DNA from: Pseudopyrenochaeta lycopersici
Lineage: Eukaryota > Ascomycota > Dothideomycetes > Pleosporales > Pseudopyrenochaetaceae
Assembly: GCA_003313425.1 (NCBI GenBank)
Contig: NHZP01000076.1
Coordinates: 150,359-214,358, forward strand
Direction: 5' to 3'
DNA: 64,000 nt
The notes under the pieces: model-generated
What the model was told of the DNA's origin: nothing
Database searches by the model: none
What the model saw: only the letters and a program-made list of their open reading frames with translations
Translations under genes and position numbers: made by a program
Shown here: piece by piece, positions 3,762 through 60,951 of the stretch
Position numbering within the stretch: the stretch's first letter is position 1
How the letters are laid out: each line of letters begins with the position of its first letter

Positions 3762-6755
3762 CTTCGCTCTCGACCGAAGGGATGGGTCGCCACCTGGGCT
3801 GAGCGGAAGGACAAGCGCATTTAGACGACCAGGCTCAGCTCCTGCTGGCGTTTCATCGCAGACACCATCATGGCATCCGCCCACGTTCCACCTTCCACCC
3901 GGTAAGTGGCGTAGAGGTGACAAGGGTCCGAGCAGCCCGCTAACAGATTGCCCCACCTTAGAACGACCAGAGACTCCACCAACCCCATCGGCCGTGATAC
4001 CCTTCAGCCGCGATGCAGACTTCGTCGAGCGGCGGGCGATACTTGATCAAATCCACCACAAATGTGCTGTACCAGGGTCGTGGACTGCACTCGTCGGCCT
4101 AGGCGGCGTGGGGTGAGTAGGAACCGCTCCACCAATACCGATTACTGACTACGGAGAAGTAAGTCGCAGCTTGCTATCGAGTATGCGTATCGGACCCGCG
4201 AGCAGTCGCCCGAGATGTGGGTTTTCTGGGTCTACGCAAGCAACGCAGCCCGGCTTGAACAGAGTTATCGCGACATTGCCGACCGTGCCAAGATTTTTGG
4301 GCGGCGGAACCCTAAGGCCAACATCTTCAAGCTGGTGCACAACTGGCTAAGTGATAGCAAGGATCGATGGCTACTCCTCCTCGACAACGTGGACGATGCA
4401 CGCTTTCTTCTTCATGTCCCGGCTAGCGGCCAAGGACAACCTGTACCTGCGGACGACCGGAAAACCGCTTCCCGACCGCTGCGCGACTACCTCCCTCACT
4501 GCGAGCATGGGTCAATCCTCATAACAACGCGGAACAAGGAAGCGGCACTTAAGCTGGTGGACCAGCGCGATGTTGTTCCTGTCGAGCTGATGGACAAGTT
4601 GCAGGCGCTGACGCTCTTCGAGAAGAAGCTGGGAGCACAAGGAAACAGAAGCGACGGCGGCGATGTTGCTGAGCTGGCGGCGGCGCTCGAGAACATGCCG
4701 CTTGCCATTGTGCAGGCTGCCGCATACATCTCACAGAGAGCACCACGATACTCGGTAGCCAGGTACCTCGAGGAGTTCAGGAAGAGCGAGCGCAAGCGGT
4801 TAAGCCTTCTTACCTATGATGATGATGACGGCCAGCTCTGGCAAAACAGTGAGTTCCGGCGAGACCGGGAGGCAAAGAACTTGATCATCGTCACATGGCA
4901 GATCTCGTTCGAGTACATACAGCAGACACGACCGTCGGCGGCGGACCTGCTCTCGCTAATGAGCTTCTTTGACCGGCAAGGGATTCCAGAGACTCTGCTT
5001 CGGAGTCGAACCGAGCAAGGAGACGCCCCGAGAAGTCAGAAAGAGCATAACGACGATGACTGGGATAGCGACGAAGAAGATGATGCATCGCAATTAGGCG
5101 CAGACGACGAGGATTTCGAATACGACGTAGTAACACTACGTAACTTCTGCTTCATCTCTGTCGACACTAGCGGCACGAGCTTTGAGATGCACGCGCTAGT
5201 GCAGCTGGCGACACAGAAGTGGCTTGACTCGAGCGGCAAGCTCGAGCGGTGGAAGCAGCAGTTCATCAGTAATCTCTGTGCAGCGTTTCCGACAGGAGAG
5301 TACGAGAACTGGCCAACGTGTCAGGCGCTTTTCGCGCACGCTAAATCTGCTGTAGGGCAGCAGCCAGAAGGGGAGGAGTCGCTAGTAGAATGGGCCACAC
5401 TGCTCTATCGTGCAGCATGGTATGCAAGGAGGAAAGGGAGTATAGCTGATGCTGAAAATCTGGCCGTAAGGTCAATGAAAGCACGAAGGGGAGTATTGGG
5501 CCAAGAGCACGAGGACACTCTCGAGAGTATGGGAATGGTGGGATTAGCATATAATTTTGGAGGTAGATTGGACGAGGCAGCGGAGATTAGGTTGCTAACG
5601 ATGGAGATTTCCAAGAAGAAGCTCGGGCCGGACCATCCTTTCACACTAATCAGCATGGCCAACCTGGCGTCGACGTACAGTAATCAAGGCCGATGGGATG
5701 CTGCCGAAGAGCTGCAAGTGCAAGTGATGGAGATGAGCAAAATGAAATTCGGAGCAGACCATCCACGCACGCTCCCCAACATGGCCAACCTTGCGTCCAC
5801 GTACTGGAATCAAGGCCGACGGGATGCTGCTGAAGAGCTGCAAGTGCAAGTGATGGAGATGAGCAAGAAGAAACTCGGAACGGATCATCCAGACACGCTA
5901 GCCAGCATGAACAATCTGGCGTCCATGTACAGTAATCAAGGCCGATGGGATGCTGCCGAAGAGCTGCAAGTGCAAGTGATGGAGATGAGCAAAACGAAAC
6001 TCGGAGCGGACCATCCAGACACGCTGACTAGCATGAACAATCTGGCGTCCATGTACAGCAATCAAGGCCGATGGGATGCGGCCGAAGAGCTGCAGGTGCA
6101 AGTGATGGAGATGAGCAAGGAGAAACTTGGAGCGGACCATCCAGACACTCTGAGCAGCATGAATAACTTGGCGTTGACATACGGGAATCAAGGGCGGTGG
6201 GATGCTGCTGAGGAGCTGGAGGTGCAGGTGATGGAGACGAAGAAGGAGAAACTTGGAGCGGACCATCCAGACACTCTGACCAGCATGGACGACTTGGCGT
6301 TGACATACGGGAATCAAGGGCGGTGGGATGCTGCTGAGGAGCTGGAGGTGCAGGTGATGGAGATGAGCAAGGAGAAACTCGGAGCGGACCATCCAGACAC
6401 GCTGACTAGCATGAACAATCTGGCGTCCATATACAGCAAACAAGGGCGGTGGGATGCTGCTGAGGAGCTGCAAGTGCATGTGATGGAGACGAGCAAGGAG
6501 AAACTCGGAGCGGACCATCCAGACACGCTGAACAGCATGAACAATCTTGCCTTCATGTGGAAAAACCAGGGCCGAGATGCAGAAGCTATAAGTCTAATGA
6601 GGGAATGTGTACAGCTTGGACAAAGCATTCTCGGAGTTGATCAACCTCGTTTTATGTCTTCCTTAATGAGTTTAGCTGTATGGGAGAGAGCGCAAGCATA
6701 TGCCGGTGCCTTAGCCGGGGGAAGTATGGCCGATGATGGACAAGATGTAGATTAG
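3679..6755 (+). CDS. NB-ARC/TPR STAND receptor (NOD-like receptor)
   Basis: Three proposed exons, 3679-3901, 3962-4112 and 4160-6755, encode about 989 residues. Intron 1 (60 nt, GTAAGT...TTAG) keeps frame; intron 2 (47 nt, GTGAGT...GAAG) splits the P-loop codons and restores GLGGVGKSQLAIEYAY. In order: a short poorly conserved N-terminus; P-loop at about residue 119; Walker B LLLLDNVDD at about 197; ILITTR at about 244; NMPLAIVQAA at about 302; MHA (for the usual MHD) near 467; then TPR repeats from about 620. Such proteins are ATP-driven switches that oligomerise on ligand binding and trigger an N-terminal effector. There is no effector domain fused here, which fits signalling to the divergent amyloid-motif gene next door. 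The start is uncertain: 3679 lies in a duplicated segment, and the region just before FHLPP looks frame-disturbed. The body of the gene is intact. Confidence 0.87.
5643..6524 (+). repeat. seven 126-bp TPR-coding repeats
   Basis: Seven consecutive 42-codon units, each reading roughly TL.SM.NLA..Y.NQGRWDAAEEL and ending with K.LGADHPD, follow one another without indels. Neighbouring units are nearly identical; for example the sixth and seventh share long identical runs. More diverged units flank them at about 5517 and 6525. They are tetratricopeptide (kinesin-light-chain type) repeats and probably form the ligand-sensing face. Near identity between units suggests recent duplication or homogenisation. 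Confidence 0.9.
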
Positions 6756-24900: not shown

Positions 24901-27128
24901 TTAACAGGAGGCAGACGACGATAGAGAATCAGGCTGAGCTACAGAGCCGGTAGAACAAGTCAGTGCTGAAGATCAAGGCACTGAGGAACAGGTTCAAGAA
25001 CAGCTGCTTAATGAGCTGCAGACACATCATGAGGATGACACGTCTACAGTCACAAGTAGACCAGATGGACCAAGTAGGCCAGATGGACCACTTAGGCCAG
25101 CTGCAACAGGCAGGCGAGGCCGACCACGAAAGCTACCATCTAAGTGGCCTAGAGGATGGAGCAATACAGACGACTATGTACCAGATCGTCAGCAGAACAA
25201 TGCACCAAAGATAGCTAATCCTGCTGTTAGAAGTAGTAGCAACATTATAGAAGGGAAGAGAGCTAGGAGGCTAGCTAACCAGGCCCTAGCTACATACTAC
25301 AGAGCATTCGCAGTAGTATTAAATCCAACAGCTCCTTTGAAGCTCGCAGGTGAGATGCCTAGGTCAAGGCTACATCGTGACCAACTGCCAGAGCCGCCAA
25401 AGCGATAGAAGGAAGTGAAAGATTATCCATTCAGTGCTGAGTTTAGAGAGGCAGCACAAGCAGAGCTTAACAGCTGCTAGTTAAAAGATTACTTTAAGCG
25501 TACGGAGGTTACTACAACGATAACAGATGCTAAGGTTCTACCCTTAATGTGGGTGTTCTTGTATAAGTTCAACAAAGACGGGTACCTATACAAGTTTAAG
25601 GCGCGTATATGCGTACGAGGAGACCTGCAGGAGGCATAGGGTAAGACGTATACTGTAACGTTAGCTATTAAGGTCTTTCGATCTCTTATAGCACTAGCAG
25701 TAGCATTTAACCTAAAGATGTTTCAGTTCGACGCCCTAAACGCCTTTCTTAACGCTTAACTACTACGCAAGATATACTATCGTACGCCTAAAGAGTTCAC
25801 AGACGAGTTTGGCGAGCTTCTTAAGCTTCAGCGAGCGCTCTATAGCCTTAAGGAAGCACCACTGCTATGGTACCAGGAGCTCTCATTAACCTTAAAGAAG
25901 CTTAGGTTGAGGCCTGTGCCAGGAGCACCGTGCCTATACACGAACGACCGTCTGATCGTCTTTTTCTATGTGGACGATATCGTCGTCCTCGTCCATCCGC
26001 TCAATATGAGCTACTACCAAACGTTCAAGCAACAGATGCTTGGAACGTACGAGATCCGTGAGCTAGGCGAGCTGAAGTGGTTCCTCGGCATCCGTGTAAT
26101 CCGCGAGGAACTTACTCAATCAATCTACCTAGTACAGGACTCATTTATTAACAAGATCGCAGTAAAGTTTACCCTAAGGTCTAGCGTGAGATGCCCGGAC
26201 GTACCCCTGAGGGACAACGTCCTCCTGCCTTCAACAGAGGATTTAAGTGCTGCTCGAACACAAAGGTATCAGCAGCTAGTTAGATCACTAGCGTATATAT
26301 CGACATTAACGAGACTAGACGTCGCGAGAGCGCACTTAATCCTTGCACGCCACCTACAGAATCCAGGGCAAAAGCACCTGCACGCTGCCAACCATGTGTG
26401 GAGATACCTAATAGGCACAAAGCACCTAGCTATTCGAGCGTCAGGGGACATCCAGCACAGCATAACTAGCATCACATCGCCAGCTTAGCAGGAGCTAGAC
26501 CAAGAACCTCTCTTTTATGGTGCATTAGATGCGGCCTTCGCAGATGAGCCTAAAACTCGCCGAAGCTCTTAAGGCTACATCTTTAAACTATATAGACTGC
26601 CTATCGACTGGAAGGTAACAGTCCAACGATCAGTCACAAAATCAACTACTAAGGCTAAGCTACTATCTCTATCCCTTGCAGGATCAGAGATGGAATGGTG
26701 GCAACGCTTCTTTCAAGCTATTCAATTTGACCCTAAGTTTACACCAGCACTGTAGTGTGATAACCAGCAGACTGTCTTAATCGTGACAAAGGCAGTTAAT
26801 AAGCTTCAGACGAAGCTAAAGCATGTGGACGTACATCATCATTGGTTACGTTAGGAGGTAGCAGAAGGCAGACTGCAGGTAGACTAGAAGGCTACTACAG
26901 AGATGCCAGCTGACGGCCTTACAAAGATCCTTAGTTAACAGAAGCACGCTGACTTCGTACGCCAGCTAGGACTAAGTGACCTATCAAGGATTCGAGAGGA
27001 ATCAGAGAGTACTGCTCTCAGTCTGCAGGACCTGGGGGGGTGGTACTACCAACTACAGTAGAGGCAGACGCTTAAGGACACTCATTTACAGCTTTTATTG
27101 CTCTTCATTCACTCAAGCTGGGGGGTTG
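21947..27128 (+). pseudogene. copia gag-pol polyprotein, RIP-degraded
   Basis: One plus-strand frame with many stops covers the element. Gag ends with a zinc knuckle, CLCGGMHQYRECWY, near 23020. The protease has ILDLGSNIYICNS near 23320. Integrase has the HEMFAHAS and CETCIES zinc residues at about 23780-23910 and its core to about 24480, with GRQPSVTHFLQIGCKAY. Reverse transcriptase (RVT_2) spans about 25440-26200 with the intact catalytic YVDDIVVL at 25967. RNase H follows to 26940. A purine tract, GCTGGGGGGTTG, lies directly before the 3' LTR. Stops are almost all TAG/TAA replacing Gln; Trp codons (HHHW, MEWW) are intact. It is not functional. Confidence 0.92.
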
Positions 27129-29126: not shown

Positions 29127-31844
29127 ATGATGTTTACCTTTCTCCCATCCTACAGCGTCCTTGTCTGCTGCCAGCATACCTGCGCTGTCTACGGCCTAGA
29201 TCAGCACCTAGAGCGCCAGCATAGTATACCTGCAACGCAGCGGAGAGAGCTGCTCGCAGCCTACTAAGGCCTTAACTTAAACCCGCCAGCGGAGGTCCTT
29301 CTCCCTCAACTAAACAGCCCGCCTATCGCGGAGCTAGGTTCCCCACAGGACGCATTTCTCTGCTGTAATTACGTTGCTAGCAGTAGTAGCAGCAGTAGTA
29401 GTAGTAGCACTACTACTAGTAAGCGCTGCGGCTTTCTAAGCATAAGCCGTAAGTGTATACAGAAACATATAAACGAGCAGCACGGTATAAAGCTTACACG
29501 ATGGTCCTCTGCCTCTGCGACCTCGTACCAGGAGCACGCTACGCAGCTATGGAGGCCAGTTAAGGTGCAGACTTTTTTCCGCGAACGGCGCTACGTCCGG
29601 TACTTTGTAGTACAGGCAGAGGTACAGGAGTAGGCACAGGAGCAGACGCAGGATCAGCATTCGGGGCAGCAACAACAGCAGAGAAAGCGGCTAGACCCTA
29701 AGGAGAGGCTCACTAGCTTGTTAGCTGAGTGGGAAACTATTGAGCGTCAGGATAACAAGGCAATCAGCCAAATCGCTGAAGAGGCCTTAGCCTACGACCG
29801 CACTGGCTGGTTAAAACGGACGCAATGGGAGCAGCACCTTAAAGCCTACCCAGACTGGAAGCAGCTCGCCTACGCTGTGCGACCGCCAGGCGACGACGAG
29901 CCAGTATTACAATGTACAGTACGCCGCGTTGAAGAGGTAGTTGAGCAGGCTGTCGAGGGGCTCAGCTCGCTATCAATTGAGACGTTGCGCTGGCTACGTA
30001 GTGCAACACCACAGCAGTCTGATTGTCGCCCTCTAGGTCGTATGCAGAAGATAGAAAGCCAACGTCGCGCAGCACGGCTCTGGGCACGACTTATTTGCTA
30101 CTGCCTGCGGTTAATTGCTGCCGGAGAGAAAGAGAAGGAGGAGGAAGACGCAGAGGACGGATTCCAGCATATCGTCCGCCTATTCCCCTGGCACAGAGGG
30201 CAGAAGCAGGAAGCAGTGAAGCTCTGGAGACTACTGACTGCTGCCGACGGAAGCAGTCACGTAGCTGAACAGCAGAAGGCTATCCTAAGCCTGTCTAAGG
30301 CACTGTTCTGCCAGGAGGTATACTGTCAGCCGTTTCATAGCAGTATAATCCACTTCCTCGCCGCGCTAGCTATTAACCCAGATACGAACTGACTACGCGA
30401 CGCCTCGCAGTTCTCAACGCTTCTTAGCTCAATCGTCTACTGCGTCCGCGTCCTAGCAGCTGAAGCTTTCCTCCCATCTACCCAGCGCGCAGAGCAGGGT
30501 GCTGCTAAGACAGCTGCTCTACTACATCAGCGAGCGCGCTATCTCGTCGATGGCTCGCATAGCCCGATGAGCATTATGATTAGTCTACTTGCCTACGCTA
30601 AGTATATCTCTCTACGTACCCTAGGCCGTATTGCAGGCAGTATGTGGTGGTCTCCTAACCGCCAGACGTTCTTCCTTAAAGGCCAGCCTATTAAGCTAGA
30701 GCGCTTTCGCGCTATGGCACAAAGACTAGTAGCGAAGGCAGAGCAGATCCTTTGGGGGGAACTGCTCTGGGTAGAGGAGCAGGCACAGCGACGCTCTACT
30801 AACCTAGCAGCTATCTAAGACAATGTGACAACAGCACAGCGAGCAGGCTGCTTCTTAACACTAGCTCAGCTTAAAGAGGGCAGGGACTGGGTTCTCGCGC
30901 GGCTCGCGAGCGTGCCAGCTGCGCAGCGACTATATATATTAAGAGGGGAGCAGGAAGGCGAGGAGGGTAATTAAGGCAGCCAAGTCTACTAAGCTAAGGC
31001 GTCTATACTGTAGCATAAGTAACAGGTGCAGCGATATCTCTAGCGCGTGGGACGCTTCCTTAAGCTACTCTGTCTCGCGGTCTATATTATAGGCGGGCAG
31101 CTAGCGCGCGGGCCTAAGTTGCTGTTAGTTTGGTGGCGTAATGGGGTGCTCTAGGATCGTAACCTCTACGTGATTGATGGGCAGGTTACGCTAGTTACCC
31201 GCTACCATAAGACGCAGGCGCAGTAGGATTGACCTAAGGTAGTTCCGCGCTTCCTGCTAGAGGCGGTAGGGCAGTTGATCGCAGCGTACCTGCTCTACGT
31301 ACGGCCTCTGCGGGCGATGCTGCTAGCTAGCCAAGGTAAAGTAGCTTTAGCATTGATAAACGACTACCTCTGGGTAGACAAGGATAAGCTCTGGGATATA
31401 GATAGGCTTACGCGTGCGTTAGCGGTTGAGTCAGTAGAGCTTCTAGGCACGCGGCTGACGATCCAGGAGTACCAGCACGTAGCTGTAGGTATTAGGCGCG
31501 AGGTAGTAGGACAGCGGTTTGCAGTAGGCTATTGTTAGGAGAAAAAGAGTCGCGGTAGTTACTGGGCGTTTGCGCCTGAGGTAGACGGTGGCAGTGACGG
31601 CGAGGAGGACGGAGAGGATCCGCTTAAGCTACAGAGCGGGCGTTTTACGACGACAGGACTAGTAGCCTATGCTGTACAGGCTGATATAGTATAGGGGCTA
31701 AGTGTTCGTTCAATTGACGTCTTCCGCACGTTAAGCTATAGCTGGCACGCCTTCCTTAGCTTCCTTCTATATACAGAGGCGAGTAGAAAGAGGAAGTAGG
31801 AGCAGAGCAGCCTAAGCGATAGAGACGAGCCGCAGAAGAGGCAG

Positions 31845-31995
31845 CAGACGCAGCAGTTCTAGCAGACGCAGCAGTTCCAGCAGACGCAGTAGTTCCAGCA
31901 GACGTAGCAGTTCTAGTAGACGCAGCAGATGCAGCAGTTCCAGTAATTCTAGCAATTCTAGCAGTTTGAGCAGTTTCAGCAGTTTTAGCAGTTCC
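31845..31995 (+). repeat. 18-bp imperfect tandem repeat
   Basis: Several degenerate units of AGCAGACGCAGCAGTTCC, fading into TTCTAGCAG and TTTGAGCAG variants. The array occupies the place of the helicase P-loop segment present in copy 2. Confidence 0.75.
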
Positions 31996-32691
31996 AGTAG
32001 TGGTAACGGTGGCAACTGAGGCAGAATTAAAGGCAGTAGTTAATAAGTCGCATGTTGTTACTACAGCAGACTTGTGGCGGACAAAGCTGCACAGGCTAAA
32101 GGATCTTCGGCTGCTACTGTGCCAGCAGGTACTACTTACAGCTACGTTGCCGCCGTTGCAGGAGAGGCAGCTACAGGAGGTAATGTTAATGCGCGGAGTA
32201 ACAATTATCCGCGCAGAGATAACGCAGCGACGTAGGACGCAGTATACAGTAGTTCGCTGCAGGCGTAAGGTAGAGCTACAGGAGACGGCTGTAGAGCTCG
32301 CGCGCAGGCTGATAGACGAGGTAAGGTTGCTTAGTAGCGCGCAGGTAGCAGAGGTGGTAGTAGGACGAGAGGTAGCAAGAGCGAAAGGGGTCGTGTACTG
32401 TCGCAGTAAGGCGCTGTGTGAGCAGCTAGCAAGGCGGCTAGGCTGCGTAGCGTACCACGCAGGCATGCCCGAGCGCGCAGAGGTGCTAGAGAGGTGGAGG
32501 CAGTCAGGAGGGCTAATCACATGCACGTCAGCGCTTAGAGTAGGAGTAGATATTGCGCAGGTGCTCTTTACGCTGCATGTAGAGAGGCTGTGGGGGATAG
32601 TTGATTTCGTGCAGGAGAGCGGGCGAGCGCGAGGGGCAGGCAAGGCAGTGATTCTAGTCGTGCAAGGACAGCAGTGGCAGAAGGCTGAGGT

Positions 32692-33020
32692 AGAGGCAGA
32701 GGCAGAGGCAGAGGCAGAGGCAGAGGCAGAGGCAGAGGCAGAGGCAGAGGCAGAGGCAGAGGCAGAGGCAGAGGCAGAGGCAGAGGCAGAGGCAGAGGCA
32801 GAGGCAGAGGCAGAGGCAGAGGCAGAGGCAGAGGCAGAGGCAGAGGCAGAGGCAGAGGCAGAGGCAGAGGCAGAGGCAGAGGCAGAGGCAGAGGCAGAGG
32901 CAGAGGCAGAGGCAGAGGCAGAGGCAGAGGCAGAGGCAGAGGCTGAGGCTGAGGCAGAGGCTGAGGCTGAGGCTGAGGCAGAGGCAGAGGCTGAGGCTGA
33001 GGCAGAGGCAGAGGCTGAGG
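32692..33020 (+). repeat. GAGGCA hexamer expansion, about 54 units
   Basis: An almost perfect (GAGGCA)n run encoding alternating Glu-Ala. The last 80 bases contain interspersed GAGGCT variants. The same site in copy 2 (about 48800-48832) has only about five units, so the array has expanded roughly tenfold in one copy. Confidence 0.95.
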
Positions 33021-34093
33021 AGCAGCAACCGATGAACGATAGCGAGGTGATGGACGCGTTTATCAGCACAGTAGGCTGTCGAAGAGCAGTAATGAGTTAG
33101 TATATGGACGGCAGGCGATTATCTTGCAGACAGCTACAGGCAAGAGCAAATACAGGAGTAGGCGGCGCAGCAGACAGGGCAGCAGAAGGCCTAGAGATAG
33201 CGTTCTGCGATAACTGTGAGGAGCAGGAGTATAGAGGGCAGAAACAGTAGCAGGACGAGGAGCAGGTACAGGCGAGGCAGGAGCAGGTAGTACGGGCGAA
33301 GCTCAATAAGCTATCGCAGACAACGTGTCCATACTGCTAGGGTATGTTGCATAAAGTATTCAGGAGGGAGGAGGGCAAGGTAGCAGTACAGCAGGAGGAA
33401 GAGGAGGAGGAGTATAAGGCAGGGCAGCAAGAGGAGGAAGAGGCGGAGCAACAGACTGAGCAGCAAGCTGAGCGGCAGGCCGAGCAGCAGACTGAGCTGC
33501 AGACTGAGCAGCAGGCCGAGCAGGCCGAGCAGCAAGCTAAGCAGCAGGCCGAGCAGCAGGCCAAGCAGCAGGCCAAGCAGCAGGCTGAGCAGCAGGCCGA
33601 GCAGGAGCTCAAGCAGAGAGAGTGCGAGGCGGCAGTACATAGTCTGTGGCAGTGTCTGCGGCTTAGGCAGGAGGGGTTGCAGGATATAGAGGAGCTGCGG
33701 AGCAGGGTAAGGTATAAAAAGGAGGTTTAAACGTGCTGGAAGTGTGGGATAATAGAGTATCTCTGCGGCAGAACGCAGGGTAGTAAGCAGAGCAGTAAGC
33801 AGAGCAGTAAGTAGAGTAGTAGGCAGGCAGATTGCGCATGGCCGAACGTAGCGATAGCAGTGCTATATGGGCTACAAGTAGCAGTAGAGGCAAAAGCAAA
33901 GCTAGAGGTAGGTAGAGGAATTTAAGATAGTAGGCTTTGGGAGGTAGGATATCGTGGGCAGGTAGATAGTAAGGAGGAGCTAGGTAGATAGATAGGAGAG
34001 GTATATCAAGATAGGCGGATTTTTAAGCATATTACTAGTAAAGGAGTAGCTAGTATTATATATAGTATCTTAGAAGAGGAAAGAAAGAAATAG

Positions 34094-38835: not shown

Positions 38836-41800
38836 CAGCCCGCCCGTATACCTCCTGCTCCTTACACTATAGAGACATTCGCGCAGCTGTTTAAACACCT
38901 GCCTAAGCTTCAAGTAGTCGTCTGCAAGCTATGTACCAGCGCTATACTACTAGCGCAGGTTGTTACGCACTTTAAAGAGCGCCACCCTAAGGTAGCAGTT
39001 GCCACGCGGAAGCACCTGGCAGCAATCATACATACGCTGCCTGAGCTTGTGCGGGTTCCAGGAGACGTTCGCGTGCTAAAGCCAGCTAAGGAGCCCATCG
39101 CTAGCCTCAAAATCTAAGAGGACGGGCTGGTATGCTTATTAGAGAGATGTTAGTATACCTGCATCTCAGTGCAAGGCATGCAGAAACACTGCAAGGATGA
39201 GTATGGCTAGGTGAACAAACAAAAGCGAGGGGGGGATATAAGGCAGAAGAGCAAGCATTCGAGCAACTGAATATAGCGAGACAGCTAATCCTGCCAGCGC
39301 CTGTTTAGAGCTGTTAGCTAGCTGGCGTATATTACGGTTAAGACAAGCGTTAGGGGTATAAACTAAGAAGACATCTCCTAGAGAGTTAAGGCAGATCGCC
39401 AGTACTAGCGGGAGAAGTAAGCGGCAGCAGCAGCGCAAGAAAAGATCTAAGAGAGCGTCCGTTCGCAAGCCGATCTGTAGCTAGCATTAACTGAATAGGT
39501 TCCTTACTTAAAGCGCAGCCCTAGGGCAGCGCTTCTGCGCGCTAAACGGCTAGCAGGTAGGGAGGTAGATGCGTATAGTAAAGAAGAAGAGGCATCAGAC
39601 GACACAGGCTTACGCGATGTTTACAAAGCTATGGAGCGGCTAATACGGAAAGCCTTCAACAGCAGCTAGGCGGAGGTTGTAGGCAGGCTTACGCTAGAGA
39701 TTATTGAGCGACGCGAGGCGGGCGCAGAGTTGAACGAGCAGCCCTTCTACGCAAGGCATCGAGTCTGCACGATTAAGAAGTACAGCCAGAAGCTAGTGAG
39801 CATCCTCTGCTACCTGTAGCGCACAAACAGTCAAGCCAACTAGCCGCTATACAAGCTTACCGGCACGCAAGACGCGCTTCTGTAGTTACTCCAGCAACTT
39901 GCGCACTCCGCCGACGCTGCAAAGAAGGGGCGGCTAGAAGAGCGATGTCTGCATCTTTGGATTGCCCTACTCAACCACACGCTGCTAGACGATAAGCACG
40001 AGAGCGCACTGCTAAGCGGGGTGGCTGTCCTCAGCCTTAAGCCTGATCACTACGGCGGTGGGTGGGTTCTAGCGCACGAGTTCTCGCTAACACTGTCCGC
40101 TCTGATCACCACCTTAAAAGCGCTCGTAGTGCATTATGCCTGCTGCTAGCGAGATAAAGCGCTTTAGAAAGACCCTAACACAGCGCCCACTACCTATAAG
40201 CTGGTTAGGGACATAGCTAAACAGTTTATAACGCTGTCTGACTTTAAAGGCACGCCTAGTCCCATAAATTAAATGCTGCGCTTACGTACGCTAGCTAGAA
40301 CACAGGCAAGGCGACGCAACACTCCCGGCATCGTGTCGTGGGATAGAGACCGTCTTCTTATTAATAAGCAGAGCTTTTCGCTAGCCGACCTCCAGTCTAT
40401 AGTTAAGGGGCTGTGCAAGACAGCGCGAATACAGTTACTTAGGGACGTCCTACTCTTAGATCTAGACGACACGGACTACGTGCGGCCTGGGAGCACCACG
40501 CTTCCAGAGGTGTCTGTAGACAAACTCGTTAACTAGCCAGCCAAGCTAGCTACGGGCTAGAGCTTTCTAAAGCACCCTAGCAACTAACTAGACAGGTAGT
40601 AAGACTGGCTTCTAGACCAGGTATTAGAGGAGGCCCTGCTACGGGAGAGATTTATCTATAGGATAGACAGCATGCAGCAGCTAAAGCGGACGCTATAGCG
40701 CAACGACGCTGTAGCTAGATATATAAAGGGTGTGCGTTGATTTAAAGAGAGCCTCTTCACCCTCGTGCACCTCTCTGCTGGTACACCCGCGCGCAGGACA
40801 GAGATCACCTTAATACAGTGCAAGAACAGCGCAGATAGGGCCAGGTGCTAAGGGGTGTTTATAGAAGGTAGTCTAGTATCCTTCACTACTACGTACTATA
40901 AGGGGTACAGCTTTAGCAAGCGTGTTAAGACTATCCACTACTACGTTCCCTAGGAGGTAAGTAAGCTGGTAGTATACTTCCTTAGGCTCAGCCGACTGTT
41001 CATAGACAATCTCTAGATGCTGCACAACAGCGTTACCCGCCCTACTGCTTTCCTCTAGGAGCTAGAACTAGAGGAGCAGTAGGAGGACGAGAGCGACAGC
41101 GAAGAGAGCGACGACAGAGACGAGTACGGCGATACTAACTATAAGAAGGCATAATCAGCCAACCCAGACGGGTACTAGGGTACCGATCGCATACGCCGCG
41201 TCCTGCGCGAGCAGACCTTCTAGTATATGAGCGCCGCCCTCGGCACCTGCGCCTAGCAGCATGCCTACCTGGCTATCTACTGAGAGCTAGCCAAAGATAG
41301 ACAGGCACGCGACTGGCTGGAAGTGCTCTACTAGAACAAAGCGCCTACGACAAGCCATGCGCGAGCGTTGCAGTCGGGTCACAGCCTTTAAACTAAGGAA
41401 GGTAACTACGGCCGCTCTATAATAGAGTCTCCCTTTTAGACCATGGTCGAGCGGGAAGAGTTCCAGCGCGTGAGCATGGACTAGTATCGCGTGCTGGAGT
41501 TTGCCTCCGCCTGGGAGAACGGCCTCATACACCCTGGTGTCCGCGCAGAGATGATAGCGCAGCAAGAGAAGCAGGCGCTCTAGCGCTGGTTATCGCTCGC
41601 GATAGTAGACCTCAAGGTAGAGTTCAGGCGACTCGCCGGGCGGCCGGACGCCAAGTATCGTAGTAAGCAGGAAGAAGGCCTTAGGGCTGTAATGCAGCGA
41701 CGGCTGCGCGTGCTGGTCGTGATGGCTACCGGCACAGGCAAGAGCATGCTGTTTATGCTGCCCGCGTCCATCTCGCCAGGCGGCGTCACCGTTGTCGTTG

Positions 41801-43489: not shown

Positions 43490-43960
43490 CTCTATATAAC
43501 CCTAACCCTAAACCTTAGGTTAGGATTAGGAAAAGGGTATTATAGACTAACTTACGGCTGGGTTAGAAGTTAGAATAGTAGAAACTAACTTGCGTCCTTA
43601 TTAGATTAGAAGTTAGAAACGAGTTAGTTAGGTAGTATACAGAGCAATAATATGTGTTAGGTGTTTATAGTATTTATAGCATATGTTAAAGGAACCAGCA
43701 GCTTAGTAGAGGAGGGAGGGTAGACTAGATTACCTACTAGAGAACAGGAGAGTACGACTAGAGACTAACTTTTACTTAATAGTTAAGTAAAAGTTAGAAT
43801 ATATAAAACAGACACAAGAGGTTCCCCTAACTCGTAGAAGTCCCCTAACCCGTAGAAGGCCCCTTAACCTATAGAAGACCGCCTAACCCGTAAAAGTCCC
43901 CTAACCCGTGAAATACCCCCTAACCTGTAGAAGACCCCCTTAACCCGTGCAGGAGAGGCA
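43490..43960. repeat. telomere-like tract and 19-bp minisatellite
   Basis: At 43498 AACCCTAACCCTAAACC is followed by TTAGGTTAGGATTAGG, so C-rich and G-rich telomere-like strands meet head to head. At about 43815-43950 six or seven units of CCCCTAACCCGTAGAAG (17-20 bp) repeat imperfectly. Both lie at the 3' end of the second-family helicase relic. Confidence 0.75.
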
Positions 43961-44567
43961 TATTAGAAAAAAGAGGAGAAAAATAGTATAGTACAAGAAT
44001 ACAGCAGAACCTATATAAAAGTGTAAAGAGCGATGTTAAAGGAAATAGAGTAGGTAGTTAGCCTGTTAGTGTAGAACGCAGAGCGTAATAGAGAGGTTGG
44101 TAGTAGGCCGTCTAGTGCAGGAAAAGAAGCTGAGCGCAGCAGGATAAAAGAATAAGGGCAAGGAAGAAAGGGTAAGTAGAGGGCCTGTTAGGTGTTATAA
44201 CGAGAAGAGAGGGCGGCCGTAAAGCGTAGAAGAAAGGGGAGGCAGCATAAAGTTCTGTTTAGATTAGAACTAAAATTAGAAAGATAACACTAACCCGGTC
44301 TATAGAAGAAGAAGAGAGATACGCGTAAGGTGTTACACTAGCCATATGGACGCGCTCAACTTTAGCGTCAACGCCATAGTTGAATAATCGCTAATTAGCT
44401 GCAGCCCTACGCACGTACCACCGCGCCGGCATAGTTAAGCGAACATCAACACCATAGTTGAGTGATAACTCTACTACCCCCCCTAAGCCCCCTCTTTACA
44501 AACCTACAAATAGCAGCTTATATACGCAAAAGACAGAAATATATATAGCTATATATATATAATATAT
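43961..44567. other. upstream flank of helicase copy 2
   Basis: Contains related short segments CAACGCCATAGTTGA (about 44369) and CAACACCATAGTTGA (about 44447), each with a small inverted repeat CAAC...GTTG, and an alternating TATATA run (44541-44566) directly before the first ATG that could serve as a TATA element. No gene seen. Confidence 0.45.
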
Positions 44568-44844
44568 ATGCAAGATCAAAGAGGAGAACAAGGCAGAAAT
44601 AGCGCGATCTTCGCGCGATTTCTAGCCTATAGGGTGCTCATTTGCCGCGAGCATCGCTACGCCGTCTATAGCCTTGATAGGCACCTTAAGGAGCACCATA
44701 GCATGCATGCAGCAGCGCAGAGAGCGCAGCTCGCCTTGTACGAGGATTTTGCGCTCCTTGCGCCAGCAGAGGTGGCCCAGCCAGCGCCCTATAGCAGCCC
44801 TATTGAGGCGCTCGGGCCAGCGCAGGACGGGTTCCTCTGCCTCT

Positions 44845-44884
<40 letters not shown>

Positions 44885-45675
44885 CAGTAGCGTCTGTAGC
44901 AGCAGCAGCAGCAGTAACAGCAGTAGCGTCTGTAGCTTTATTAGTACAAGCCGCGCGAAGATGCAGCAGCATATTAATCAGCAACATAGCGTTAAGCTTA
45001 TGCGCTGGTCGTCTGCCTCAGCTGCCTTGTATCAGGAGCAGGTGACGCAGCTATAGAAGGCTGTTAAGGTACAGACCTTCTTCCGCGAGCGGCGCTACGT
45101 TCGCTATTTTATTGTACAGGAGGAGGAGGAGGAGGAGGAGCAGGAGGAGGAGGAGGCAGCTGAGCAGCAGGCGCAGGCAGAACAGCAGCAGGCAGGGCAG
45201 CAGCAGGCACGGCAGCAGCAGGCAGGGCGACAGCAGACAGAGCAGCAACAGCAGCAGGAGGCGCTAGCTCATCTCACGTTAAGCTGGCAGGCCCTTAAGC
45301 GCGACGATAGCGAGGCCATGGATCGCATCGCAGAGGAGACGGCCGCCAAGGACCGTACAGGCTGGATTAAGAGGACGCGCTGGGAGGAGCACCTGCAGGC
45401 CTATCCTAACTGGAGGCTGCTAGCCCACGCGATCCGGCTGCCAGGCGACAACGAGCCTGCGCTGCAGCAGCTGGTAGCCGCAGTAGAGCAGCTGGTAGAG
45501 CAGGCGGTACAGGGCCTTAGCACGCTTGCGATTGATACGCTGCGCTGGCTGCGTAGTGCCAAGGCGCATGAGCCTGACGTACGGCTGCTGGCTAAGATGC
45601 AGAATAAGGAGAGCCAGCAGCGCGCGGCCAGGCTGTGGGCTCGTCTGCTCTGCTACTGCCTGCGCCTAGTCGCTA

Positions 45676-45679
45676 TAGA

Positions 45680-45725
<46 letters not shown>
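45676..45725 (+). repeat. CAG trinucleotide run
   Basis: About 16 CAG units encode poly-Gln inside copy 2 of the helicase gene. Copy 1 has a Glu/Lys-rich stretch at this place. Further CAG runs occur at 44846-44930 (serine frame) and 46410-46436. Confidence 0.9.
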
Positions 45726-45727
<2 letters not shown>

Positions 45728-47399
45728 CGAGGCCGAGGCAGAGGCAGAGCACGGACTGCAGCATATCGCCCGCCTATTCCCCTGGCATGGTAGGCAGAGG
45801 CTAGCAGCTAGGAGGCTCTGGAAGCTTCTCTCGTACCACCAGGATAGCAGCGACAGCCAGGTAGCTCAAGATCAGCAGAAGTACGTGCTGCGCCTGTTTG
45901 AGGAGCTGATCTGCCAGGAGGTTGTCCACCAGCCGTTTGAGAGCGGCGTTGTACACTTCCTTGCTGTGCTAGGTATCAATCCAGAGACGCTGCGGCTGCG
46001 TAGGGCAGCAGAGTATTCGACACTGCTTGGCTCGCTTGTGTACTGCGTGAGGGTAATAGCAGCTGAGGCCTTCCTGCCCTCCGCGCAGCGCAGTAATCAA
46101 GGCGCTACAGAGACGCTGGTACTACTGCAGAAGCGAGCTAGGCACCTTGTAGACGGCTCGCACAGCCCAATGAGCACAATGCTAAGCCTGCTAGCATACG
46201 CTAAGTTTATCTCACAACGGACGCCTGGCAGCATTGCAGGTAGTATGTGGTGGTCAGCTAATCGGCAGACGTTCTTTATTAAGGGCCGTCCTGTTGCGCT
46301 GGCGCAGCTCTGCGCGATGGCGCAGGGTATTGTAGCAGAGGCTGCGCAGGTACTGTGGGAGCAGGTGCTCTGGGTACAGCAGGAGCAGGAGCAGGAGCAG
46401 GAGGAGAGGGCGAAGCAGCAGCAGCAGCAGCAGCAGACAGCTAGCAGCCCGCCACCTCTTAATCTCGCAGCAATCCAAGACGACGTAAGTATAGTACGGC
46501 GTGGGCTCTCGTTTCTCTCAGCAGCACGCCTGCAGGAGGGCGAGCAGTGGATGCTGCAGCAGCTGTCAACTACGCCAGCAGGCCAGCGCTTATATAAGCA
46601 GCAGAAGGGGGTAGCAAGCGAGCAGCAGGAGGACGCGCAGCAGCCAGTACAGTGGAACAGACCCAGGGTGCGGCAGCACCTACGCCAGATTAATCGCTTT
46701 CTTGACCTACTCTGCCTCGCGGTCCACATAACAGGCGGCCAGCCAGCGCGTGGGTCTGAGCTGCTCTCAGTTCGGTGGCGGAACGGGGTGCTTCAGGATC
46801 GCAACCTCTACGTAATTGATGGGCAGGTAACGCTAGTAACGCGCTACCACAAGACGCAGGCGCAGTGGGATTAGCCTAAGGTAGTAGCGCGCTTCCTGCC
46901 AGAGGCAGTAGGGCAGCTAATTGCGGCGTACCTGCTCTACGCACGGCCACTGCGGGCGATGCTGCTCAGCGGGCTGGGGAAGCAGGCGTCAGCGCACACG
47001 ACTGACTATCTCTGGGCTAATGAGCAGGGCCCGTGGGAGACAGATCAATTAACGCGTGTGATGGCGGCTGAGTCAGCAGCCTGGCTGGGCACGCGGTTGA
47101 CAACGCAGGACTACCGCCATACTGCTGTAGGGATTGGGAGGGAGGTAGTAGGCGAGCGGTTTGCTGCCAGCTATCGCGCAGAGCTAGCTCAAGGTAGGAC
47201 AGCAGAGGAGGCAGAGGCAGGCAGCGAGGACGATGGCGAGGATCCGCTTGAGCTACAGAACGGGCGGACGACAGCGATTGGCATGGTAGCGTACGCTGTG
47301 CAGGCTGATCTGGTGCAGGGGCTCAGCGCGCGGTCAATTGACGTGTTCCGCACGCTGAGCTGTACGTGGCACGCGTTTCTTGGCTTCGCAGAGGCAGGG

Positions 47400-47522
47400 A
47401 CAGGAGTAGGAGCAGGGGCAGGAGTAGGAGCAGGGGCAGGAGTAGGAGCAGGGGCAGGAGTAGGAGCAGGGGCAGGAGTAGGAGCAGGGGCAGGAGTAGG
47501 AGCAGGGGCAGGAGCAGGGGCA
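47400..47522 (+). repeat. 18-bp minisatellite coding Gly-Val-Gly-Ala-Gly-Ala
   Basis: Six and a half units of GGAGTAGGAGCAGGGGCA follow each other almost perfectly inside copy 2, between the recombinase-like and helicase parts. Copy 1 has no such array. Confidence 0.95.
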
Positions 47523-49259
47523 GAGAAAGAGAAGCAGCAGGAGAAGCAGGTATCAAAGCGGAAATAGGGGGGAGGCGTTACTGAGCAGGCGCAGGATAGT
47601 AGCGAGCACAGCCGCAGGCAGAAGAGGGTAAGGGTAGGTGAGGAGGGTACCGCGGCTGAAGCAGCAGTATCTGCTCAAGGCAAGGGCAACAAGGAGAGGA
47701 GAGGGCTCGAGGACGCTATTCGACAGGTGCTCTGTCTCTCAGCCAATCATCTAGTCAAGTACAAGTCAGCTACACAGGAAATTGCACTACAGGCTGTTGT
47801 ACGAGGGCTCAGTCCGCTGGTAGTAGTACTACCAACAGGCGGAGGTAAGACGCTACTCGCATTTGCTCCAGCAGTACTTGAGCAGCAGCAGGCAGAACAG
47901 AAGGCAGAGATAGGTAGTATTACGATCTTTGTCGTACCATATCGCGCACTAATCTAGGATATGCTCGTACGGCTTAGGCAGGCAGGTATTAAGGCAGCTG
48001 AGTGGAAGGTAGGGGTTGAGGGCGACTATCAGAACCGCCGGACGCTAGCTACTATTATAGTAGTTAGCGCTGATCACGTAGGGAGTAGCAGCAGGCAGTT
48101 TCTCTCATACGCCAGCTTACTTGCACGGCAGGGAGTGCTACAGCGGGTAGTAGTTGATGAGTCGCATGTTGTTATCACAGCAGACTCGTGGCGGACAAAG
48201 CTGCAGAGGCTAAAGGATCTTCGGCTACTGCCGTGCCAGCAGGTACTACTTACAGCTACGTTACCGCCGTCGCAGGAGAGGCAGCTACAGGAGGTAATGT
48301 TAATGCGCGGAGCAACAATTATCCGCGCAGAGACAACGCAGCGACGTAGGACGCAGTACACAGTAGTTCGCTGCAGGCGTAAGGTAGAGCTACAAGAGAC
48401 GGCTGTAGAGCTCGCGCGCAGGCTGATAGATGAGGCAAGGTTACTTAGTGGCGCGCAGGTAGCAGAGGTAGCAGTAGGACGAGAGGTAGCAAGAGCGAAA
48501 GGGGTCGTGTACTGTCGCAGCAAGGCGCTGTGTGAGCAGCTAGCAGGGCGGCTAGGCTGCGTAGCGTACCACGCAGGCATGCCCGAGCGCGCAGAGGTGC
48601 TAGAGAGGTGGAGGCAGTCAGGAGGGCTGATTACGTGCACGTCAGCGCTCGGAGTAGGAGTGGATATCGCGCAGGTGCTCTTCACGCTGCATGTAGAGAG
48701 GCCGTGGGGGATGGTTGATTTTGTGCAGGAGAGCGGGCGAGCGCGAGGGGCAGGCAAGGCAGTGATTCTAGTGGTGCAAGGACAGCAGTGCCAGAAAGCT
48801 GAGGCAGAGGCAGAGGCAGAGGCAGAGGCAGAGGAGCAGCAACCGATGAACGATAGCGAGGTAATGGACGCGTTTATCAGCACAGTAGGTTGTCGAAGAG
48901 CAGTAATGAGTTAGTATATAGACGGCAGGCGATTATCTTGCAGACAGCTACAGGCAAGAGCAAATACAGGAGTAGACGGCGCAGCAGACGGCGCAGCAGA
49001 AGGCGCAGAGATAGCGTTCTGCGATAACTGTAAGGAGCAGGAGTATGGAGGGCAGAAACAGTGGCAGGACGAGGAGCAGGTACAGGCGAGGCAGGAGCAG
49101 GTAGTACGGGCGAAGCTCGATGAGCTATCGCAGACGACGTGTCCATACTGCTGGGGTATGTTGCATGAAGTATTCAGGAGGGAGGAGGGCAAGGTGGCAG
49201 TACAGCAGGAGGAAGAGGAGGAGGAGTATGAGGCAGGGCAGCAAGAGGAGGAAGAGGCG

Positions 49260-49440
49260 GAGCAACAGACTGAGCAGCAAGCTGAGCAGCAAGCTGAGCG
49301 GCAGGCCGAGCAGCAGACTGAGCTGCAGACTGAGCAGCAGACTGAGCAGCAGACTGAGCAGCAGGCTGAGCAGCAGGCTGAGCAGCAGGCCAAGCAGCAG
49401 GCCGAGCAGCAGGCCAAGCAGCAGGCCGAGCAAGAGCTCG
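49260..49440 (+). repeat. Gln/Glu/Ala-coding 12-bp repeats
   Basis: Tandem CAGCAGGCTGAG-type units encode repeating Glu-Gln-Gln-Ala/Thr in the C-terminal part of copy 2. Copy 1 has a comparable run at 33450-33610 and copy 3 starts inside its own (62150). It probably forms a long charged helix. Confidence 0.8.
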
Positions 49441-49920
49441 AGCAGAGAGAGCGCGAGGCGGCAGTACATAGTCTGTGGCAGTGTCCGCGGCTTGGGCAGG
49501 AGGGGTTGCAGGATATAGAGGAGCTGCGGAGCAGGGTAAGGTATAAAAAGGAGGTTCAAACGTGCTGGAAGTGTAGGATAATAGAGTATCTCTGCGGCAG
49601 AACGCAGGGTAGTAAGCAGAGCAGCAAGCAGAGCAGTAAGCAGAGTAGTAGGCAGGCAGATTGCGCATAGCCGAACGTAGCGATAGCAGTACTATATAGG
49701 CTACAAGTAGCAGCAGAGGCAAAAGCAAAGCTAGAGGTAGGTAGAGGAATTTAAGATAGTAGGCTTTGGGAGGTAGGATATCGAGGGCAGGTAGATAGTA
49801 AGGAGGAGCTAGGTAGATGGATAGGAGAGGTATATCAAGATAAGCGGATTTTTAAGCATATTACTAGTAAAGGAGTAGCTAGTATTATATATAGTATCTT
49901 AGAAGAGGAAAGAAAGAAAT

Positions 49921-59725: not shown

Positions 59726-60951
59726 ATGCGAGCATCAACAGTCGCGGCTATTTTGGCGTTTACTGCAGGCATAACTGCTAATGCCGCACCTGTTGTCCTC
59801 TCAGAGGGTCTCTCTGATAGCCTTCCGTCTGGGCTTCTAACCACAGTTGGCCTTGATGTACCTGCAGGTGTTAATAATCTATAGGTCCCACACAGCGAAC
59901 AATATACTAGGTTACTAACAGCATCAGGAGCCAGACAATCCGAGACCAGAGTTCTAAGGAGGCCCAGGCGGTTACAAAGAGAGAGCCACAGCGAGGCCGG
60001 GGCCGCGGTAGACGTAGCCAGGCAGGTCGTGTTGGCGGTGTTGTTAAGGGTGTAACTGAGGGGATTGGCGGCGCAGCAGACGCAATTTTCATCAGGCAGA
60101 CGATCCAGGACCAGACATCTCAAGAGGCGCAGCCAGTGGCGAAGAGAGAGCCACAGCGAGGCCGGGGCCGCGGTAGACGTAGCCGGGCGGGTCGTGTTGG
60201 CAGTGTTGTTAAGGGTGTAACTGAAGGTATCGGCGGGGTGGCAGATAGAATCTTCATCGGACAGACGATCCAAGACCAGACGTCTGAGGAATCGCAGCCA
60301 GTAGCGAAGAGAGAGCCACAGCGAGGCCGAGGACGTGGTAGACGCGGGCGAGCTGGTCGTATTAGCAACGTCGTTAAGGGCGTAACTGAAGGTATCAGCA
60401 GTACAGCAGATGCTATTTTCATTAGGCAGACAATCCAAGACCAGACCTCTCAGGAATCGCAGCCAGTTGCGAAGAGGGAGCCGCAGCAAGGCCGGGGACG
60501 TAGTAGACGCAGGCGAGGTAGTCGTGTTAGCGGTGTTGTGGAGGGCGTAAGTGAGGGGATTGGCGGCGCAGCAGACGCAATTTTCATCGGACAGACAATC
60601 CAAGACCAGACCTCTCAGGAGGCGCAGCCAGTAGCTAAGAGGGAGCCGCAGCGAGGCCGGGGACGTAGTAGACGCGGGCGAGGTAGTCGTGTTGGTAGGG
60701 TGGTTAAGAGTGTAAGTAAGGGTATTGGCGGGGTGGCAGATAGAATCTTCATCGGACAGACGATACAAGACCAAAGCTCTAAGGAGGCGCAACCAGTAGC
60801 AAAGAGGGAGGCACAGCGAGGCCAGGAAGGTGGTAGACTTAGGCAGGCAGGGATTTGCCAAGTAGGGGTTGAGTCAGCGTGTAATGGCGACTCAGCTAGA
60901 CTAGATTTGGAGTTTGGTGCAGATTTAGACTTCACTGGTGCAGATTTCTAA
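59726..60951 (+). CDS. signal peptide plus Kex2-type tandem-repeat precursor
   Basis: Exon 1 (59726-59869) encodes MRASTVAAILAFTAGITANA, a clear signal peptide, plus 28 residues. A stop at 59882 requires an intron; a 65-nt one from 59870 to 59934 with the branch-like TTACTAAC joins the frames but has a weak GTTAAT donor. Exon 2 (59935-60951) contains five units of exactly 55 codons starting at 59977, each opening KREPQ(R/Q)GRGR and ending near QTIQDQTS.E.QPVA, then a partial unit with KREAQ and a unique 45-residue tail. Total about 386 residues. Lys-Arg at each unit start is the cleavage site of the Golgi protease Kex2, and the following Glu-Pro or Glu-Ala resembles dipeptidyl-aminopeptidase spacers of yeast alpha-factor. 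Each unit has a cationic GRGRGRR segment and an amphipathic VVKGVTEGIGGVAD helix and no Cys, Trp or Tyr. Probable products are several near-identical secreted peptides. The intron is the weak point. Confidence 0.7.
59977..60801 (+). repeat. five 165-bp tandem repeats
   Basis: Units start at 59977, 60142, 60307, 60472 and 60637, each exactly 165 bp with no indels; a sixth partial unit starts at 60802. Substitutions between units are numerous yet the frame, the Lys-Arg codons and the GIGG/GIS and IFI(G/R)QTIQDQ segments are kept, indicating selection on the protein and not just recent duplication. Confidence 0.95.

Follow-up and report, generated by a model that had tools for sequence, protein, structure and literature searches.

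A candidate tyrosine-recombinase-type core in OrsD-helicase genes clustered at contig ends of Pseudopyrenochaeta lycopersici

An OrsD-helicase gene with a long middle part

The window, i.e. the whole stretch of DNA analysed here, comprises 64,000 nt of Pseudopyrenochaeta lycopersici (assembly GCA_003313425.1, contig NHZP01000076.1, forward strand, 150,359-214,358) and represents the terminal 64 kb of a 214-kb contig, the genome amounting to 62.7 Mb in 188 contigs. Its plus strand, to which the coordinates of all gene copies and their parts refer, carries an OrsD - recombinase-like - helicase gene, designated copy 2 (44565..49670), whose single frame encodes, in this order, an OrsD zinc-finger domain (PF12013, best stretch 44610..44852, E 3.5e-12), a long middle, a DEAD/Helicase_C helicase (PF00270 at 47772..48275, E 9.7e-16; PF00271 at 48492..48743, E 1.5e-8) and a C-terminal Cys-rich part. 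An earlier reading of the window from its letters alone, called here the sequence-only reading, had proposed OrsD-type zinc fingers, which the PF12013 match confirms, and a RecQ-like helicase, of which the helicase stands (DEAD, ResIII and Helicase_C profiles match) and RecQ proper is unsupported, no other helicase profile having matched. That reading had also treated the frame as readable; its motifs do share one frame, but this frame is interrupted by six stops, all of them TAG (45054, 46872, 47565, 47955, 48912 and 49668), one of which (46872..46874) falls within the recombinase-like domain, between the Lys and the second Arg discussed below. Copy 2 is therefore a dead, decayed pseudogene. 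Decay of the TAG type and C-poor AT-rich tracts, accompanied by OrsD genes and CCCTAA contig ends, suggest a filamentous fungus with repeat-induced mutation.

The middle of copy 2 reads GGQPARGSELLSVRW, RYHKT, YRHTAVGIGRE and a Tyr, with 34 codons from the Arg to the Lys, 88 from the Lys to the second Arg and 59 from there to the Tyr. The order and spacing for which the sequence-only reading had invoked the catalytic set of tyrosine recombinases are thus borne out from the frame, the residue numbers shifting by one to R729, K763, R851 and Y910 when codons are counted from 44565. The corresponding codons are those of the box I Arg (CGT, 46749..46751), the hairpin Lys (AAG, 46851..46853), the Arg of the box II Arg-His pair (CGC CAT, 47115..47120) and the candidate nucleophile Tyr (TAC, 47292..47294); to them can be added the box I Glu of an R-x-x-E motif (GAG, 46758..46760) and the box III position nine residues ahead of the Tyr (47265..47267), occupied in copy 2 by Arg (CGG). 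The proposed (H)xxRH signature survives in its second half only, since the Arg-His is present and the first His, three residues before the Arg, is absent.

Conservation of the candidate catalytic residues

A MAFFT alignment of eight divergent open-frame paralogues (20-46% identical to the first) contains 15 invariant columns; the box I Glu and all four nominated residues belong to them. The set was extended by a ninth row, L052, a 4286-base contig from outside the P. lycopersici genome that derives from a Mucilaginibacter metagenome-assembled genome, of which it is probably a eukaryotic contaminant, and that carries a relative followed by helicase-like sequence. With it, 14 of 406 columns remain invariant, all four nominated residues included (D86, G172, R176, E179, N187, R193, K210, L237, P242, R298, Y357, W382, H383 and L386, numbered along the aligned stretch of L037). 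Both this nine-row set and A3 consist of chosen lineages; the near-identical L031, L032, L034, L038-L042 and L047, the fragment L051, the broken L048 and other decayed copies were excluded. The four residues, which the sequence-only reading required not to vary, are thus the same in all nine lineages, and the chance of all four R/K/R/Y being invariant is 9e-5 within residue types and 9e-7 for a uniform draw, for aligned stretches whose ends were trimmed with knowledge of the motif. In uncut frames (five rows each), R735, E738, K769, R857 and Y916 of L037 are likewise invariant. Five full-length proteins share 61 invariant positions, which include Cys and His residues from two fingers at the N-terminus and are densest around box I, the fullest 100-residue bin with 12.

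The remaining positions of the motif are more variable. Box II reads RH in eight lineages and RQ in one, and the box III position, which the sequence-only reading had not used and where canonical tyrosine recombinases have His or Trp, holds His in seven of nine and Arg in two, namely the family of copy 2 and L033. At the place of the HxxR His, three residues before the second Arg, none of the nine has a His (Q, L, V, R or S is found instead). When the whole motif is written as a strict regular expression, it matches eight of the nine lineages, missing L036, and 3 of 18,000 shuffles.

Copy number and position in the genome

A search of the genome returned at least 111 matches, 37 of them stop-free across the matched stretch (some being pieces of one gene), and 18 of these 37 share an identical score and lie in open frames of 1398-1607 aa; many other copies are decayed. 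When a distant relative served as query, a second search gave at least 107 matches, including additional families with open frames of 1351-1682 aa. No relative was detected in viral contigs (six scans) or in plasmids. One paralogue, P0001, is an intact 1481-aa open frame that combines an OrsD domain (E 4.5e-10) with the recombinase residues and has no helicase match in a family profile search, implying that in its lineage the recombinase-like core, and not the helicase, was kept.

The sequence-only reading had described a repeated, subtelomere-like gene, and the genomic distribution agrees. From the lists of 111 and 107 matches, after removal of second pieces of one gene and of repeats between the tables, 96 places on 37 contigs of known length were counted, neighbouring copies not being independent. 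Of these, 81 face the nearer contig end, as do 62 of the 67 that lie on contigs no shorter than 150 kb; of these 67, 48 are within 50 kb of an end, and all 48 point outward. CCCTAA runs occur at two of the 12 contig ends that were read (C5 and C17). Orientation alone does not favour movement driven by a recombinase, because end-to-end homologous exchange yields the same pattern.

Five copies of a 1604-aa family share 4.8-7.9 kb in pairwise comparisons of stretches of up to 9.9 kb, with breakpoints that vary between pairs. A short head-to-head telomere-like tract, CCCTAACCCTAAACCTTAGGTTAGGATTAGG, lies at 43500-43530, about 1 kb upstream of copy 2. Among the other loci that were scanned, none has a tract of this kind, the one exception being a pair of repeats within the 1604-aa family, and telomere repeats do not consistently mark unit borders.

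A diverged tyrosine-recombinase-type domain?

We consider it probable, at roughly 0.65, that the central part of the subtelomeric OrsD-helicase proteins of fungi represents a diverged catalytic domain from the tyrosine recombinase/topoisomerase-IB superfamily, housed in subtelomere-dwelling elements. The narrower claim of a recombinase fold by descent, taken alone, is very likely; it is supported, not proved, by the invariant R, E, K, R and Y, by the His that precedes the Tyr in most lineages, by the register of profile-profile alignments and by an alignment-guided structure model. Since the HxxR His is absent, the domain can be placed in the wider superfamily only, and not among canonical integrases.

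How might such a protein act? The Tyr would cut one DNA strand and hold it as a 3'-phosphotyrosine, aided by the two Arg, the Lys and, in most lineages, the His, and the held strand would then be rejoined to another strand. Chromosome-end DNA would most likely be bound by the N-terminal OrsD C2H2 fingers together with the C-terminal Cys motifs, and the DEAD/Helicase_C motor, where present, would open the duplex or migrate the joint. The genes would accordingly encode the enzymes with which elements resident in subtelomeres insert into, or exchange, the DNA of chromosome ends. The lack of the HxxR His is also seen in topoisomerase IB and in telomere resolvases, and this likeness makes a reaction at chromosome ends an attractive guess. 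It is conceivable, though we hold it only tentatively, that fungal telomere-linked OrsD helicases together make up a superfamily of mobile elements living at chromosome ends, in which a so far unrecognised tyrosine recombinase, akin to telomere resolvases and joined to a helicase, drives insertion into chromosome ends or their exchange and so shapes fungal subtelomeres.

Several observations weigh against a recombinase and would suit an uncharacterised domain of another kind that resembles one through a coincidence of common conserved residues. HMMER-type searches of the region and its open-frame relatives, intact homologues included, against Pfam, NCBIfam, PHROGs and PDB sequences found no recombinase, and the OrsD-helicase proteins matched neither PF00589 (Phage_integrase) nor PF11917 (DUF3435), so that the assignment made in the sequence-only reading is partly supported, by residues, register and model rows, and has no match in HMMER-type searches. 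The hhalign results are weak and depend strongly on trimming: 11 of 24 settings failed to exceed their own permuted controls, and a less trimmed profile aligned box I alone (score 19.06, exceeded by 1 of 40 permuted controls). AlphaFold without an alignment gave a pLDDT (predicted local distance difference test) of 39 and a model whose 50 VIA-align rows include no tyrosine recombinase, two serine integrases appearing at ranks 23 and 49 over 41-51 residues. The alignment-guided model (46458..47390) is itself of low confidence, below the level for placing the four residues in one pocket, and was folded from an alignment out of register at the Tyr end; Foldseek returned nothing from PDB or BFVD at E <= 0.001. 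On the other hand, a more trimmed profile brings the motif into register over its full length, and the ten best VIA-align rows of the alignment-guided model are all Cre-type or XerH tyrosine recombinases. Coincidence would also have to account for a His-Tyr pair at the exact spacing in seven lineages and for R-x-x-E in all nine. Moreover, the low hhalign probability is not decisive, because two sequences of DUF3435, an accepted recombinase family, reach comparably low values with that set of 14 references (4.0% local and 1.7% global). Coincidence thus appears improbable. Less probable still is an element of the KolobokH or AcademH kind, which combines a DDE transposase with a RecQ helicase, even though PMC10799480 names both as helicase sources: there is no transposase Pfam match, and no DDE triad can be assigned, because D645 and E738 (L037 numbering) are the only acidic residues invariant in the five full-length proteins. 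A DDE transposase was rejected on these grounds.

Another explanation accepts descent from a recombinase and holds that the domain no longer cuts DNA; it would now serve in DNA binding or as a scaffold while the helicase acts at telomeres, copies spreading passively by end-to-end homologous exchange. Such exchange would by itself produce the clustering and orientation, and it sits well with the replacement of the box III His by Arg in two lineages, with the missing HxxR His and with the want of sharp common element ends in the five copies of the 1604-aa family, whose comparison delimited neither element borders, direct repeats nor target sites. The last of these points leaves the sequence-only proposal of a self-contained element for moving or amplifying chromosome ends unconfirmed. 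What a loss of cutting explains poorly is the retention of R, K, R and Y in all nine lineages, when so few columns are invariant, and the survival of the recombinase part in the helicase-less P0001. We therefore regard a non-cutting domain as rather unlikely, and retain the diverged catalytic domain as our preferred interpretation.

Relation to known systems

Like XerD, Cre and phage integrases (PF00589), the P. lycopersici domain has an R-x-x-E box I, a Lys, a box II Arg-His, mostly a His nine residues before the Tyr, and the Tyr itself, and its low-confidence model predicts the helix, three strands and helices of canonical tyrosine recombinases, with the Lys between the second and third strands. 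Unlike them, it lacks the HxxR His, has longer spacers and escapes PF00589. No sequence match to topoisomerase IB or hairpin telomere resolvases was found. As recombinases of fungal mobile elements, Cryptons (PMC7175516) and Starship captains, which we take DUF3435 to represent, would have something in common with the proposed enzyme. Kinship with DUF3435 is nevertheless unsupported: hhalign against two DUF3435 sequences gave no register, and the 29 PF11917 matches in the genome (on C63, C51, C46, C5 and others) all lie away from OrsD genes. Neither Starship captains nor Cryptons are known to include a helicase. Fungal transposon proteins with helicases do exist, as KolobokH and AcademH show, and the P. 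lycopersici proteins differ from these in having no assignable DDE triad. Academ uses DDE chemistry. SAKe designs, the best PDB-profile rows, were rejected, being matched by the C-terminal low-complexity end.

Subtelomeric helicase genes have been reported, and read as helicases, in many fungi, among them Magnaporthe, Zymoseptoria, Ustilago, Colletotrichum and Fusarium. The Colletotrichum higginsianum DHX_G198 group, repeats with a helicase and DUF3505, is present at every one of the 24 chromosome ends, always in the same orientation (PMC5576322), and telomere-linked helicases (TLHs) of Fusarium are present in many copies at chromosome ends (PMC12857005). The P. lycopersici genes resemble the former in OrsD (DUF3505) plus DEAD/Helicase_C, end clustering and single orientation, and the latter in their chromosome-end setting; both sets are described as helicases, the word 'recombinase' not occurring in either main text, whereas the P. 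lycopersici genes carry a recombinase-like core that persists in a helicase-less paralogue. The new aspect is the combination of OrsD fingers and, in most cases, a helicase with what is probably a diverged enzyme of the tyrosine-recombinase type. Among the matches listed from the open-licence PMC literature, no assignment of a recombinase to these genes was found; an earlier description elsewhere, e.g. in a database superfamily note, is possible. What would follow if the OrsD-type core were a strand-cutting and -joining enzyme? The role of the genes would become testable: do they move, and do they rearrange the ends of chromosomes, in which fungi house fast-evolving genes? Chromosome-end genes would be recast as possible mobile or end-rearranging elements, and a recombinase-plus-helicase architecture would join helicase-bearing DDE elements such as KolobokH.

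Other features of the window

Copy 1 retains a decayed recombinase-like domain (30495..31736) with 11 stops in the matched stretch and with substitutions at the box I Glu and the box II Arg, followed by the C-terminal part of the helicase, which holds a long Glu-Ala repeat (31970..33097, from open frame and repeat analysis). This 12-base repeat (32586-33089), short in copy 2, leaves a long open frame on both strands. A third, more distant and L046-like relative, also decayed, lies at about 40252..41502 (GTPARRTE ... YYKG ... SGHSL*TKEGNYGRS). C-poor AT-rich tails follow the helicase genes on their 3' side in three copies within the window (33.0-36.5, 48.8-52.1 and 62.1-64.0 kb), with a GC skew near 0.8 and, in two of the three, 81-base internal repeats. 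Elsewhere, 4149-6755 holds an NLR-like open frame of 868 aa, in which many tetratricopeptide repeats are joined by a weak match to NB-ARC under the cut-off, 25760-26488 a reverse transcriptase fragment (PF07727 RVT_2, E 1.3e-22), and 59911-60951 a tandem repeat of five 165-base copies that is open on both strands.
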